Shown here one piece after another: positions 52,945 to 62,992 of a stretch of DNA of 64,000 bases. The translations under genes and the position numbers were made by a program. The DNA comes from Halogeometricum sp. S3BR5-2. GTDB lineage: Archaea; Halobacteriota; Halobacteria; Halobacteriales; Haloferacaceae. The stretch spans positions 248,001 through 312,000 of the forward strand of contig NZ_JAMQOQ010000002.1 in assembly GCF_031624635.1 (NCBI RefSeq), in the 5' to 3' direction. The notes below the pieces were generated by a model that saw only the letters and a list, made by a program, of their open reading frames with translations, searched no databases and was not told where the DNA came from. Every line of letters begins with the position of its first letter. Positions within the stretch are counted from its first letter, which is position 1.

Positions 52945-54996
52945 ATGCAACGCGCATTAGCAGTGTTCGCGGCGCTGGTCGTTCTCGTCGGGGGCGTCCC
53001 GGCGGGCGCGGCGGCACAGCAGTCGTCCGACGCGACAGTATCGTTCGCCGCCCAACCGTCCGGCGGGTCCACCGTCGTCGTCGAGAGCGTGACGCTCTCG
53101 GAGGGCGGGTTCGTGACGATTCACGACGCGAGCGTCACCGAGGGCAACGTCCTCGGGAGCGTCGTCGGCACCTCCGCGTACCTCGACGCGGGGACGCACG
53201 AGAACGTCACCGTCCACCTCGACGAACCCCTGACCGAGTCGGGCGCGTTCGTCGCCATGCCGCACCTCGACACCGACGGCGACCGCGTCTACGACTTCGT
53301 CGCCGACAACGGCGAGACCGACGGGCCGTACACCGCCGACGGTGAACCCGTCGTCTCGCAGGCGAACGTCACCGTCGCCGCGACGGTGTCGATGAGCGAC
53401 CAACCCACCGACGGCGCCTCCGTCGTCGTGGACCGCGTGGAACTCTCGGAGGGCGGGTTCGTGACGGTTCACGACGCGAGCGTCACGGAGGGTGCCGTCT
53501 TCGAGAGCATCCGCGGCACCTCCGAGTATCTCGCCCCCGGCGTCCACGAGAACGTCCGCGTTTCGCTCGACGCGCCCGTCGAGGAGGACGCCACCCTCGT
53601 CCCGATGGCGCACGTGGACTCGGACGGTGACATGGAGTACACCTTCCCCGAGAGCGAGGGGGAGACCGACGGCCCGTACACGGTCGACGGTGAGGCCGTC
53701 GTCGACACCGCCGAGGTGACGCCCTCGGAGACGGCGAACGTGACGTTCGCCGCGCAGTCGACCGGCGGGCAGTCCGTCGTCGTCGACAGCGCGTTCCTGC
53801 CCGAGGGCGGGTTCGTGACGGTTCACGACGCCTCCGTTACCGAGGGCGCCGTCTTCGAGAGCATCCGCGGCACCTCCGAGTACCTCGCACCCGGTCTGCA
53901 CCGGGACGTTCGCGTCTCCCTGGACGCGCCGCTGAACGAGTCCGCGACGCTGGTTCCGATGGCGCACGTGGATTCGGACGGCAACGAGGAGTACACCTTC
54001 CCCGAGAGCCAAGGCGAGGCGGACGGCCCGTACACGGCCGACGGTGAACCCGTCGTCGCGCAGGCCGACGTGACCGTCTCCGCCGACGTCCACATGATGC
54101 CGCAGGCCTCCGACGGGCACAGCGTCGTCGTCGACCGCGTGGAACTCTCGGAGGGCGGATTCGTCACCGTCCACGACGCGTCGCTGTTCGCCGGCGAAGT
54201 CGAGGGTAGCATCCTCGGTACCTCGGAGTACCTCGAACCCGGCGTCCACGAGAACGTCACCGTGACGTTCGACGAACCGATTCGCGCCTCGCAGACGCTC
54301 GTCCCGATGGCGCACATGGACACCGACGGCGACGAGGAGTACACCTTCCCCGAGGCGGACGGCCCGTACACGGCCGACGGTGAGGCCGTCGTCGACACCG
54401 CGCGCGTCTCGGTGAACGCCGTCGTCACCGTCTCGAACCAGACGACCGACGGCGATGCGGTCACGGTAGACTCCGTGACGCTGGCGAACGGCGGATTCGT
54501 GACGGTCCACGACGCCTCGGTGACGGAGGGCGCCGTCTTCGACAGCGTCCGCGGCACCTCCGCGTACCTCGCGCCCGGCACGCACGAGAACGTCACCGTC
54601 GAACTCTCCGCGCCCTTAGAGGAGACGACGACCATCGTCCCGATGGCGCACGTGGACACGAACGGAAACGAGGCGTACGACTTCGTCACCAGCGAGGGCG
54701 AGGCCGACGGGCCGTACGTCGCCCGCGGCGGTCCGGTCGTCGCCACGGCGGAGGCGTCCCTCTCCGGCGAGATGTCGGGCACCGGAACGGAGATGGGTTC
54801 GGGTACCGAGATGGAGATGACTCAGACGGAGATGGCCACGGACACCTCCGAGATGACCGATACCGAGATGACCTCGGAGACGGAGACGAACGGCGGCGAG
54901 GCGACGGGCACCGACGGAAGCACGCCCGGATTCGGCGTCGCCGTCGCCGTCGTCGCCCTCCTCGCGGCGGCCCTCCTCGCGGTCCGGCGCGACTGA
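52945..54996 (+). CDS. Surface protein with five DUF7282-type repeats and PGF-CTERM
   Basis: 683 aa. A Sec-type signal (MQRALAVFAALVVLVGGVPA ending AAAQQ) is followed by five tandem repeats of about 110-120 residues, each with EGGFVTVHDASVTEGAVF, GTSEYLAPGxHENVxV and LVPMAHVDSDG, the pattern I recall for DUF7282. N-glycosylation sequons sit in the HENVT motif of some repeats. A Met/Thr/Glu-rich linker and then STPGFGVAVAVVALLAAALLAVRRD mark a PGF-CTERM, removed by archaeosortase A during lipid anchoring. A surface role is likely; its biochemical function is unknown. Confidence 0.9.
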   Translation: MQRALAVFAALVVLVGGVPAGAAAQQSSDATVSFAAQPSGGSTVVVESVTLSEGGFVTIHDASVTEGNVLGSVVGTSAYLDAGTHENVTVHLDEPLTESGAFVAMPHLDTDGDRVYDFVADNGETDGPYTADGEPVVSQANVTVAATVSMSDQPTDGASVVVDRVELSEGGFVTVHDASVTEGAVFESIRGTSEYLAPGVHENVRVSLDAPVEEDATLVPMAHVDSDGDMEYTFPESEGETDGPYTVDGEAVVDTAEVTPSETANVTFAAQSTGGQSVVVDSAFLPEGGFVTVHDASVTEGAVFESIRGTSEYLAPGLHRDVRVSLDAPLNESATLVPMAHVDSDGNEEYTFPESQGEADGPYTADGEPVVAQADVTVSADVHMMPQASDGHSVVVDRVELSEGGFVTVHDASLFAGEVEGSILGTSEYLEPGVHENVTVTFDEPIRASQTLVPMAHMDTDGDEEYTFPEADGPYTADGEAVVDTARVSVNAVVTVSNQTTDGDAVTVDSVTLANGGFVTVHDASVTEGAVFDSVRGTSAYLAPGTHENVTVELSAPLEETTTIVPMAHVDTNGNEAYDFVTSEGEADGPYVARGGPVVATAEASLSGEMSGTGTEMGSGTEMEMTQTEMATDTSEMTDTEMTSETETNGGEATGTDGSTPGFGVAVAVVALLAAALLAVRRD

Positions 54997-58380: not shown

Positions 58381-61300
58381 ATGCAGATATATACCATGTT
58401 TAAGCAGAGATTAGACCAAAACCAAGTCCGCGCCGTGACGCTCGCGGCACTCGTGATGCTTTCCGTCATCGGGGGGTCGGTGGCATTCGCGGGGAGTGCG
58501 GCGGCGGCGTCAGAACTCAACGTTTCTCCAGAACTCGCCCAGCCGGGCGAATCCGTCTCGTTGAGCGTAAGTACTGCAACTAACGACGTTATCTTCGGAG
58601 TTGACTCCGACAACAGCGGCACAATCGAAAACGACGAGATCGTCGGAACCTCTGATGGGGAATTCGATCCAACGGGCGCTATCTCGTTTACTCCCGATTC
58701 GCTCCCTGAAATCTTCGCTAGCACGGATGCAAGCTTCACCATCGCAGTAATCGAGGAAGACGGAAATACCAACAATGGAAACGCTGACATCTCGTCGTTC
58801 CTTGTTTCAGAATCTGACAAAACCGGCACGCTCGATGTCGACGGCGTCGGGCCATCCATTATCGAAACGTCTGTCACCTCGACGGACGCGAACGAGGACG
58901 GTATCTACGTCAAGGACGAAACCGTCCAGGTCACGGTGACCTACGACGAGGCAGTTACCGTCGATACCACCGACGGCACGCCGACGCTCGAAATCGCTCC
59001 GGGCACCGAAGCGTCCTACGTCAGTACCGACTCGAACAAAGTCGTCTTCGAGTACACCGTTCAGGAGGGAGATGAGACTGAACTGACGCTCGGCGAGATC
59101 AAACTCAACGGCGGCGCGATAATAGACGCCGCAAACAACAACGCAGACACGACGACCGACGCGCAGGGCATCGACGTGTCTGTCGACGCCGTCGCCCCAT
59201 CCATCGACGGTGCTTCCGTCGTCTCGACGGACGAAGACGGCGTCTACGTCGCTGGCGAGACCATCGAGGTCACGGTGACCTACGACGAGGCAGTTACCGT
59301 CGATACCACCGACGGTACGCCGACACTCGACCTCGGAGACGTCTCGGGCGACGCGAACTACGCCAGTGGGTCCGGTTCCACCCAACTCGTGTTCAGCTAC
59401 GATGTGAGCGACGGAGACGAGGGTAAGCTGACGCTCGGCGACATCTCGGGCGGCACACTACAGGACGCCGCGGGTAACGATGCGGACACGACGGCCAGCG
59501 CGCAGAGCATCGATGCCTCTGTCGACGCAGTCGACCCGATTAGCCCGAGTTCGATCACGGTCCAGACGAAGACACCAATAAACTCGGCCAACAAATCGGT
59601 CGTCGACATCAATGTGAACTTCGACTCCGTGCCCGAGTCGGGTACGGTGACGCTCAGAGTCACCGATGAAGACACCGGTGAAGTGACCGACACCGTCGAT
59701 ACCGATGGTAGCGAGTCGGTTTCGTTCACCGTCGACCTCCACAGCCTCTACGACGGCCAACTCACGGCTGCGGCGAAACTCACCGACGACGCCGGTAACG
59801 AGAACTCGTCCGGTTTCACGGCAGAGCAGACTTTCGACAAGGACACCACCGCTCCATCTGTGAGTGTTGAGTCTCCTTCCGAGAACGATGTCGTCCAGTC
59901 TCAAGACGCGATTTCGGGGACGGCCTCCGCCAGCGACATTGAGGCGGTTGAACTGAGAATCGCTAATGGAAGCAAAACGTGGAACGGTGGTGAATTCACG
60001 AGTACGGGTACGGTCGTCGGTGCGACGACGTACGACGCTCAGAGCGGCGTGTGGACCTACGACAGCAGCAGTATCGGCAGTGAAGGCAGCTACACTATCA
60101 CTGCGATAGCAATCGACACCTCTGGGAACTCCCAGAGCAGTTCCGATGTGACGTACACCATCGACAACTCCATCGACACGGCGTCCATCGAATCGCTGAA
60201 CGAGACGGTCGTCGCCGCCGGTGACACGATCGAGGTAACCTACAACGCGAACGACGTGAACTACGATTCCGCTCGTCTCATCGTTGAGAACTCGACCGAA
60301 CAGTTCGGCTCGTACGACGCGAGCAACGGCACGACGGTGACGCAGGGTGTCTTCGCCCCGAACACGGCCGGTGAGTACACGGTCCGACTCGAAGTCAATG
60401 ACACCGCCGAGAACAGCAACAACGAGTCCACGAAGAGCTTCACCGTCGACACGGCGGCGCCGAACGTATCGGGCGTGACGCTCGAAGCCGAGGACGGCGA
60501 CTCGGTGGTCACTGTCGGCGACACCGTCACCGTCACCACGAACGTCTCCGGTCAGACGGACGTCGCGTCCGTCGACGTCGACGTGACGCAGTTCAACAAC
60601 AGTGCGGTCACCATGACCGAAACCGACGAACCGGGCGTCTACAGCGCGACCTTCACGGTCGACGAATCGGCGATCGAAGGCGAACAGAACGTCTCGGTGA
60701 CGGTCACCGACAACGTCGGCAACAAGGACGTGTTCGATTCGAACTCGCTCACCGTCGACACGAACGCGCCTTCGTTCGACTTCCTCGAGGCTCACCAGAC
60801 CGATGGATTCGTCAACGTCACGTTCCACGTGAACGAGACGCTCGACACGAACTCCATCGAAGTCAGCATCCGAGACGGTTTGAACCAGGAACTCGGGACG
60901 GTCACCTCGTGGACCGAATCCGACAGCACGGACCACCTCTACGAGGGTTCCTACGAGATCGGTAACGAGGAGACGCCCTACAGCGCGAACCTCACCGCGG
61001 CGTCCGACGTCGCCGGTAACGCCGTCTCGGACCCGCTCCTGAACGACACGATTCCCGTCACCAGCGGGGTCGACATCTCCGCGTCCGGTAACGTGACCAC
61101 GGTCAAAGTCACAGCCGACGAGGAACTGAAGAGCTTCGACATCGGTCTCCAGAGCGAGCAGAACCTCGCCGAGTCCGCGAAGGACGACGAGATCGCGGCC
61201 GGCGTCCGGCTCAATCAGTCGCAGTTCGACTCCAGCGCGGAGAAAGTACAGTCCGCCTACACGTACACGTACACGTACACCTACACCGTCCCGCGTGACG

Positions 61301-62247
61301 GCAAGTTCAACGCGACGCTCTCGAACGTGACGGCCGTCGGTGGGTCCGAACCGCACGGCGGAGTGGTCGCCGACACCGACTCCGTGGTCGTCGACACGAA
61401 GGCGCCCAGCGTCGTTGACGCCGAAATCGTCGACGCTAACGGCACGCGAACCAACGTCTCGATTCAGTTCGACGAACCCGTCTCCGTCAGTTCCCCGGGG
61501 ATCAAACTCGCTGGTGAGAGTATGACGAATCTCGATAACGACGACTCCCGGCAGGACGAAGGCGTCGTGTACGTCTACCTTCCGGGCATCGTTGCGACCG
61601 GTGATGCCCCGTCGCTCTCGGTGACCGGCGGCGTCTTCGAACGCTACGACCACACCGAGAACACGAAGAACGTCGTGACCACCGCCCCCGGCGGCGACCT
61701 CGTCGACCCCCACTCCTGGACCACGCTCGACACGCACGAGTACGACCTGAAGAAGGGCGTCAACTTCGTCTCCGTCCCGGCCGAGTTCGGCTCGCTCGAC
61801 ATCGCGAGCTCCGAATTCGCCGACATGACGATCATGACGTACGACGACGGCGAGTGGCTCACCTACAACCCCGAGAAGCCCGGCGACGAGCAGGACTTCG
61901 CGGAACTCGAGGGCGGCCAGGGCTACATCGTCACGACCGACGCCGACGCGACGGTCGACGTGACGGTCCGGAACGAGAAGCCCGGCACGACCGCCGAAGA
62001 CGCCACGCCGAGCGCGCAGCACCTCGAAGAGGGCTGGAACCTGATCGGCCACTGGCAGGAGGGCTCGCAGTCGCAGATTCAGGCCCTCGGTACGATCGGT
62101 CAGAGCGAATCGACCAACGTCTGGGAGCAGAACGTCGCCGGTTCCTACGGCTACGACGTCGCGAGCGACTTCGCTCCCGGCCACGCGTACTGGGTCTTCG
62201 TCGAGGACGACGAGGTCTACACGGCCTCCGAGTACGCCCAGAACTGA
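58381..62247 (+). CDS. Large surface glycoprotein (S-layer type), 1288 aa, no C-terminal sorting signal
   Basis: A signal peptide (about residues 6-40, ending AFAGSAAAASE) shows Sec export. The body consists of beta-sandwich repeats: two homologous units around VTVTYDEAVTVDTTDGTPTL, later Ig-like units with many NxS/T sequons, and a final domain LKKGVNFVSVPAEFGSL ... LEEGWNLIGHWQEGSQSQ, typical of haloarchaeal surface glycoproteins. Strikingly, it ends DEVYTASEYAQN with no Thr-rich stalk or PGF-CTERM; those features are in the next gene. ATG at 58381 or 58396. The N-terminal third is lower in GC than the rest. Function: cell envelope, likely S-layer or adhesin. Confidence 0.9.
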   Translation: MQIYTMFKQRLDQNQVRAVTLAALVMLSVIGGSVAFAGSAAAASELNVSPELAQPGESVSLSVSTATNDVIFGVDSDNSGTIENDEIVGTSDGEFDPTGAISFTPDSLPEIFASTDASFTIAVIEEDGNTNNGNADISSFLVSESDKTGTLDVDGVGPSIIETSVTSTDANEDGIYVKDETVQVTVTYDEAVTVDTTDGTPTLEIAPGTEASYVSTDSNKVVFEYTVQEGDETELTLGEIKLNGGAIIDAANNNADTTTDAQGIDVSVDAVAPSIDGASVVSTDEDGVYVAGETIEVTVTYDEAVTVDTTDGTPTLDLGDVSGDANYASGSGSTQLVFSYDVSDGDEGKLTLGDISGGTLQDAAGNDADTTASAQSIDASVDAVDPISPSSITVQTKTPINSANKSVVDINVNFDSVPESGTVTLRVTDEDTGEVTDTVDTDGSESVSFTVDLHSLYDGQLTAAAKLTDDAGNENSSGFTAEQTFDKDTTAPSVSVESPSENDVVQSQDAISGTASASDIEAVELRIANGSKTWNGGEFTSTGTVVGATTYDAQSGVWTYDSSSIGSEGSYTITAIAIDTSGNSQSSSDVTYTIDNSIDTASIESLNETVVAAGDTIEVTYNANDVNYDSARLIVENSTEQFGSYDASNGTTVTQGVFAPNTAGEYTVRLEVNDTAENSNNESTKSFTVDTAAPNVSGVTLEAEDGDSVVTVGDTVTVTTNVSGQTDVASVDVDVTQFNNSAVTMTETDEPGVYSATFTVDESAIEGEQNVSVTVTDNVGNKDVFDSNSLTVDTNAPSFDFLEAHQTDGFVNVTFHVNETLDTNSIEVSIRDGLNQELGTVTSWTESDSTDHLYEGSYEIGNEETPYSANLTAASDVAGNAVSDPLLNDTIPVTSGVDISASGNVTTVKVTADEELKSFDIGLQSEQNLAESAKDDEIAAGVRLNQSQFDSSAEKVQSAYTYTYTYTYTVPRDGKFNATLSNVTAVGGSEPHGGVVADTDSVVVDTKAPSVVDAEIVDANGTRTNVSIQFDEPVSVSSPGIKLAGESMTNLDNDDSRQDEGVVYVYLPGIVATGDAPSLSVTGGVFERYDHTENTKNVVTTAPGGDLVDPHSWTTLDTHEYDLKKGVNFVSVPAEFGSLDIASSEFADMTIMTYDDGEWLTYNPEKPGDEQDFAELEGGQGYIVTTDADATVDVTVRNEKPGTTAEDATPSAQHLEEGWNLIGHWQEGSQSQIQALGTIGQSESTNVWEQNVAGSYGYDVASDFAPGHAYWVFVEDDEVYTASEYAQN
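58928..59315 (+). repeat. 49-bp perfect direct repeat inside the surface protein gene
   Basis: 58928-58976 and 59267-59315 are identical over 49 bp, spaced by 339 bp (113 codons), encoding VTVTYDEAVTVDTTDG in both units. Confidence 0.85.
61258..61287 (+). repeat. In-frame TACAC(G/C) hexanucleotide microsatellite
   Basis: Five hexanucleotide units (three TACACG, two TACACC) encode alternating Tyr-Thr in the surface glycoprotein. Could change length by slippage without changing frame. Confidence 0.85.
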
Positions 62248-62287
62248 ACAGCCCGCTTCCCACCCATATTTCACATAATCCATTACA

Positions 62288-62992
62288 ATGACACAAATCA
62301 CGCGACAGACGAACGGCCTCCGGTACCTCACACTCGCCATCGTAGCGCTCTTGGTGGTCGCTCCGGCGACCGCTGCCGCCGTCCCGAGCCCCCCGCACGA
62401 GGTGTTCGGTACGGTCACCGATCAGGACGGCGACCCCGTCGAAGGCGCGAGCGTCACGGTGACCGACGCTGACGGGAACAGCCACGCCGCGACGACCAAC
62501 GCCGACGGCTACTACGAGATCAAGTTCCCCGCCGACGAGGGCGACGCCGGGGAGACGCTCACCGTCGAGGTGAGCGGCGAGTCAGAGACCACGTCCTTCG
62601 CGAGCGGGAGTTCCGAACGGCTGGACGTCGAAGTGACCATCTCGTCCGACGACGGGCGAGACGAGAACGGCGACGACGACGACGACAGATACTCGTCCGG
62701 CGGTTCCTCGTCCGGCGACAGTTCGTCGGCCGGCGATTCCTCCGATACGGCCGGAGAATCCGGCGATGGGACGGAGACGCCCGTCGACTCGGTGACGACC
62801 ACCGAAGAGCCGTCGAGTCCCGAGCCGACGACCTCCGAATCGACGACCGAGCAATCCACCACCGAACGGCAGACGACTGAGCAGCCCGTCACCGAAGAGC
62901 GAACGACTTCGACGGGCATCCCCGGATTCGGCCTCGTCGTCGCGGTGCTGGCGCTCGTCGCCGTCGCGTTCGTCGCCGCCCGACGCGAGTAA
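62288..62992 (+). CDS. Surface protein with carboxypeptidase-regulatory-like domain and PGF-CTERM, 234 aa
   Basis: Begins with a Sec signal (LTLAIVALLVVAPATAAAVP). One CarboxypepD_reg/Cna-B-like domain follows (VFGTVTDQDGDPVEGASVTV, ATTNADGYYEIKFPADE). An acidic patch and a ~100-residue Ser/Thr/Glu-rich, likely O-glycosylated stalk (GGSSSGDSSSAGDSSDTAGE; TTEEPSSPEPTTSESTTEQS) run to PGFGLVVAVLALVAVAFVAARRE, a PGF-CTERM. It starts 40 bp after the large surface protein and looks like the anchor module of that protein as a separate gene. Role inferred. Confidence 0.9.
   Translation: MTQITRQTNGLRYLTLAIVALLVVAPATAAAVPSPPHEVFGTVTDQDGDPVEGASVTVTDADGNSHAATTNADGYYEIKFPADEGDAGETLTVEVSGESETTSFASGSSERLDVEVTISSDDGRDENGDDDDDRYSSGGSSSGDSSSAGDSSDTAGESGDGTETPVDSVTTTEEPSSPEPTTSESTTEQSTTERQTTEQPVTEERTTSTGIPGFGLVVAVLALVAVAFVAARRE

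Follow-up and report, generated by a model that had tools for sequence, protein, structure and literature searches.

Two adjacent genes of Halogeometricum sp. S3BR5-2, located in the 64,000-nucleotide stretch of DNA analysed here (the window), encode a large secreted surface protein devoid of an anchor (BIG) and a small protein with a membrane anchor (SMALL). The same split recurs in relatives, the anchoring of the two proteins is complementary, they occur together in the genomes and one natural fusion of the two exists. The best explanation, which we consider probable, is that BIG is held non-covalently by SMALL. The features of the locus are as follows:

58381..62247, + strand: BIG, 1288-aa secreted surface protein with Ig-like repeats and without a C-terminal membrane segment (ORF)
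58423..58509, + strand: BIG signal peptide region, residues 15-43 (TIGR04207)
61336..62244, + strand: BIG C-terminal module, putative docking module (alignment A1, AlphaFold)
62245..62247, + strand: BIG stop codon, TGA (sequence)
62248..62287, + strand: BIG-SMALL intergenic gap, 40 bp, equal to the median of the 34 pairs (range -8 to +136 bp)
62288..62992, + strand: SMALL, 234-aa membrane-anchored partner with its own signal peptide (ORF, Pfam, NCBIfam)
62378..62662, + strand: SMALL mature N-terminal beta-sandwich, CarboxypepD_reg type (PF13620, invariant columns, AlphaFold)
62663..62905, + strand: SMALL stalk, acidic then Ser/Thr-rich (sequence)
62906..62986, + strand: SMALL PGF-CTERM sorting signal, residues 207-233 (TIGR04126)

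Domain Organisation of BIG and SMALL

Both open reading frames were found at the coordinates and on the strand given in the initial annotation, with the 40 bp gap between them. The signal peptide of BIG matched TIGR04207 (halo_sig_pep) with 25.6 bits, against a cut-off of 24.6, and a Big_13 match was detected by Pfam within the protein. PGF-CTERM was absent according to the NCBIfam profiles and the C-terminal hydropathy is 0.4, so that the signal peptide and the missing anchor had been read correctly. The C-terminal module is composed of an Ig-like part and a part containing GVNFVSVP, GGQGY, GWNLIGHWQ and GxAYWVF, and its alignment (A1, 16 sequences) has 18 invariant columns. The claim that BIG ends in the usual domain of haloarchaeal surface glycoproteins did not survive: the module matched no family in Pfam or NCBIfam, it is present in a single copy in the source genome and none of the four csg-like proteins encoded there carries it. 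The AlphaFold model of the module (pLDDT 76) was poorer than that of the SMALL domain, and Foldseek, tried for a clue to its fold, returned generic Ig matches with TM ~0.2, which were uninformative. An unusual density of N-glycosylation in BIG was also considered and discarded, as the 22 sequons compare with 16 +/- 3.6 in shuffles, with no enrichment.

As for base composition, GC is 0.58-0.60 in the first two thirds of BIG (58381-60960), 0.65 in the last third and 0.68 in the whole window; the low value is suggestive of recent transfer and was not accepted as proof of it. In 20 of 26 BIG relatives GC3 was lower in the N-terminal half of the ectodomain than in the half adjacent to the module, which suggests that the outer domains of BIG-type proteins have been exchanged. 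A TACACG hexanucleotide repeat (61258-61275) codes for part of a Tyr-Thr run of BIG, and gain or loss of a unit would change the length of the protein, leaving the frame intact.

SMALL has the parts originally assigned to it, namely its own signal, a small beta domain, a Ser/Thr stalk and PGF-CTERM. The domain matched PF13620 with 44.6 bits (gathering cut-off 32.3) and the tripartite PGF-CTERM matched TIGR04126 with 35.1 bits (cut-off 24.5). AlphaFold predicted a seven-strand sandwich (pLDDT 89), opened by a conserved PxPPH...G.V.D motif recognised from the invariant columns. Archaeosortase A (ArtA) is encoded in the source genome (TIGR04125, 350 bits, G000:C1), where its gene adjoins that of a 587-aa csg-like PGF-CTERM protein (G000:C1:826123-828905). 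A PGF-like motif was present in about 20 SMALL proteins of the 34 pairs described below and the rest had a different C-terminal helix; on this count, PGF-CTERM is one among several anchors used by SMALL proteins. Upstream of BIG, at 3.4 kb, lies a further PGF-CTERM protein (52945-54996, 683 aa) with five DUF7282 domains.

Conservation of the Two-Gene Split

The family (171 genomes) was searched with the last ~300 residues of BIG, giving 16 hits, window included; the profile of the module (A1) was then run against 392 genomes of the order, and the loci were read. The strong BIG-type set consists of 37 genes in 34 haloarchaeal genomes, window included. In 34/37 the next gene is a SMALL homologue on the same strand, at -8 to +136 bp, which answers the question, raised with the first reading of the locus, of whether relatives have one gene or two. 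The three BIG genes without an intact SMALL next to them are at contig ends (2) or followed by a broken SMALL (1). No BIG (0/37) has a C-terminal membrane segment, as opposed to 33/34 SMALL proteins, the remaining one being truncated at the end of its contig. In 27/37 genes at most 25 residues separate the module from the stop, and the remaining 10 continue past an internal module with more sequence, still without an anchor.

The pair was found in Haloferax larsenii, H. mucosum and H. elongans, and in species of Halorubrum, Halobellus, Haloarcula, Natrinema and Halobacterium, and one-to-one pairing spans five haloarchaeal families. One of the 37 genes (L112, in G257) is a 260-aa piece made of the module only, whose ectodomain seems to have been lost or broken. 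At another locus (L106, in G206) there are two tandem BIG genes, and the SMALL between them appears frameshifted. In-frame stops flagged in three genomes (G295, G272, G280) were recognised as an artefact of matches extending beyond the real stop.

Association between BIG and SMALL

Among the 392 haloarchaeal genomes, strong hits to both the BIG module and the SMALL domain were observed in 28, to one alone in 1 each and to neither in 362 (Fisher p = 1.7e-40, with related genomes treated as independent). One genome, G460, contains SMALL and lacks BIG. The module and the SMALL domain had correlated pairwise distances (Mantel r = 0.62, p = 1e-4, n = 34), a value that includes shared phylogeny.

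The most direct evidence in support of a link between the two proteins is a natural fusion, a single case of 966 aa (L147:3685-6585) in G325, a genome that carries the two-gene form as well. Residues 34-655 of the fusion are similar to the BIG ectodomain of the two-gene locus of G325 (37% over 658 columns, 1.5e-97), and residues 773-857 to the SMALL domain (36%, 2.9e-13), after which come a Thr-rich stalk and a membrane helix. The fusion lacks the GWNLIG module, the signal peptide of SMALL and the greater part of the PxPPH motif, as expected if module and motif both serve docking, which would be needless once the chains are joined. A fused gene with the same junction, which would have indicated a sequencing error, was sought among the relatives; since this sole fusion has neither the C-terminal module nor the junction, it does not point to such an error. 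A second fusion candidate, in G458, turned out to be an unrelated CarboxypepD_reg protein.

The idea of tethering advanced in the initial annotation thus draws strength from adjacency, complementary anchoring, co-occurrence, correlated distances and one fusion, and loses the standard final domain attributed to BIG. We propose that BIG and SMALL would be the halves of a single unit at the cell surface. BIG would be exported through its own signal peptide, without membrane attachment, and SMALL, secreted separately, would be retained in the membrane through its PGF-CTERM, probably after processing and lipid-anchoring by ArtA; many relatives have another C-terminal helix instead. The Ser/Thr-rich stalk would raise the N-terminal beta-sandwich of SMALL off the membrane, and we infer that this sandwich may bind BIG non-covalently, the putative binding face of BIG most likely being the conserved C-terminal GWNLIG/AYWVF module. 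In this way, the ectodomain would be free to diverge, and the docking pair would stay conserved. To a broader proposal we give about an even chance, namely that a new and ancient docking pair, formed by the GWNLIG/YWV module and the PxPPH beta-sandwich, serves across Halobacteriota to hang exchangeable giant surface proteins on membrane-anchored partners, as a two-component surface layer whose origin is independent of SlaA/SlaB.

Comparison with Known Systems

The closest analogue of the pair is SlaA/SlaB of Sulfolobales, made of a large soluble beta-rich outer protein and a small anchor (PMC10903991, PMC12175726). The combination of a large soluble and a small membrane-anchored protein is present at 34/37 BIG loci, as adjacent genes. 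Like SMALL, SlaB has an N-terminal beta-sandwich and a C-terminal membrane segment, and in both systems the outer protein is variable and the anchor more conserved. However, SlaB contains three beta-sandwich domains and a trimeric coiled coil, whereas SMALL has one domain, a Ser/Thr stalk and PGF-CTERM; judged from its sequence, the C-terminal part is a low-complexity Ser/Thr/Asp stalk and not a coiled-coil trimer. Moreover, SlaA/SlaB form an S-layer lattice, whereas BIG/SMALL are known here from their genes. By comparison of the predicted SMALL fold, a common one, with the PDB, SlaB of Sulfolobus acidocaldarius ranked third (8qox_B; E 1.5e-4, TM 0.61, 22% identity); in the 8qox assembly SlaB is AlphaFold-modelled (PMC10903991). 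The sequence profile of SMALL gave an insignificant E = 2 against SlaB, and no match to SlaA was found. Because the fold is widespread and the profile match insignificant, the likeness of SMALL to SlaB is one of analogy or very remote kinship, not of membership. According to a review, the split between assembly and anchor proteins is described for Sulfolobus, and most S-layers rely on one protein (PMC12175726).

The csg or HVO_2072-type S-layer glycoprotein (TIGR04216, NF041335) shares the type of signal peptide with BIG. In haloarchaeal S-layer proteins of this kind, such as csg of Haloferax, stalk and PGF-CTERM belong to a single gene, whereas here that part sits on SMALL. BIG was below the cut-off of both NF041335 and TIGR04216, TIGR04207 being its sole NCBIfam match, and homology of its ectodomain to csg past the signal peptide was not retained, since the similarity of BIG ectodomains is weak there (best 1e-5).

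Four csg-like PGF-CTERM proteins (814-843 aa), each the product of a single gene, are encoded in the source genome, and the three Haloferax carriers of the pair retain an S-layer glycoprotein that passes the NF041335 cut-off. As ordinary one-gene S-layer-like proteins are thus encoded in the same genome, an S-layer role of the pair is unproven, and the pair could make up a further coat, a fibre or a giant adhesin. In our judgement the arguments are evenly balanced on whether what a real pair holds on the cell is a large adhesin or matrix fibre and not a lattice-forming S-layer. The co-existing S-layer proteins, the patchy occurrence (16/171 genomes of the family, 1/5 in the genus), the resemblance of the internal Ig repeats of BIG to 2yn3, a solved bacterial protein (E 1.3e-6), and the weak similarity to csg are in favour of it; the signal peptide of BIG, on the other hand, is of the surface-glycoprotein type.

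The proposed logic also recalls cohesin-dockerin display, in which exchangeable modules dock non-covalently on an anchored partner; the likeness is limited to this logic, as the domains are unrelated and the partner of BIG is usually the next gene. The CarboxypepD_reg and CnaB-like surface beta-sandwiches share the fold and the PF13620 match with SMALL, which differs from them by its PxPPH start, its membrane anchor and its GWNLIG-module partner.

Independent Function or Disrupted Gene

The genes might be co-transcribed and their products act apart, BIG being released to the medium or matrix and SMALL being an unrelated small surface protein. Genes of surface proteins may be neighbours without interaction, as the PGF-CTERM gene upstream of BIG illustrates, and some module proteins have no adjacent SMALL. 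Nevertheless, the one-to-one pairs in five haloarchaeal families and in methanogens, the absence of a self-anchored BIG and the natural fusion make this explanation improbable.

Regarding the integrity of the genes, the reading frame of SMALL is +1 with respect to that of BIG; read-through of the stop would therefore not join the two, and translation past the TGA gave 74 unrelated residues. The SMALL genes read in relatives have their own start and signal peptide. Thus, a frameshift, sequencing error or recent stop splitting one anchored gene in the source strain only, against which the initial annotation had cautioned and which the single-gene csg-like S-layer proteins of Haloferax could bring to mind, is practically excluded by the differing frames, the independent signal of SMALL and a split conserved in relatives, with the stop at the homologous place in 27/37 genes.

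Novelty and Occurrence beyond the Core Set

A full-text literature search, covering few subscription journals, found no description of the BIG/SMALL pair, which may have been mentioned elsewhere. A two-part pair had at first been called unusual, a word to be qualified, since the pair is recurrent and not peculiar to the source genome. Its presence in haloarchaea and methanogens suggests that surface proteins are also attached in a manner as yet undescribed. In the phylum, the solved surface-layer proteins, those of Haloferax volcanii and Methanospirillum hungatei, are single proteins with their own anchor; in M. hungatei it is a single PGF-CTERM protein (PMC11641113). If the variable outer protein does have a dedicated anchor, encoded separately and conserved as such, haloarchaea and methanogens would have a modular way to change their surface, which would bear on virus entry, mating, biofilms and syntrophy, and a role would be suggested for many proteins now recognisable by PGF-CTERM alone. 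The pair is open to testing in culturable Haloferax species.

A divergent haloarchaeal class (e.g., L122-L129, L131-L133, L139, L148-L151, L156) combines a large protein without a C-terminal anchor and a SMALL of 220-620 aa, many of which begin with PPxPPAAYYG. In a phylum-wide search the BIG-SMALL gene order was also found in loci of other families, as at L224, where a BIG of 1276 aa (module 5e-34) is followed, after 20 bp, by a SMALL of 452 aa (7e-13). McrA was over the cut-off in 13/17 genomes with such loci from other families, so most of these carriers are methanogens or close kin. Pairing in methanogens is looser: module proteins at L231, L232, L237 and L238 have no adjacent SMALL, and a profile search found none elsewhere in G538 and G579, two of the four genomes concerned, and a partial match in G662. 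Finally, at L230 (L230:2555-4522 and downstream) the SMALL-like protein that follows BIG ends, by eye, in a dockerin-like repeat and not in a membrane helix, hinting at a cohesin-mediated attachment.
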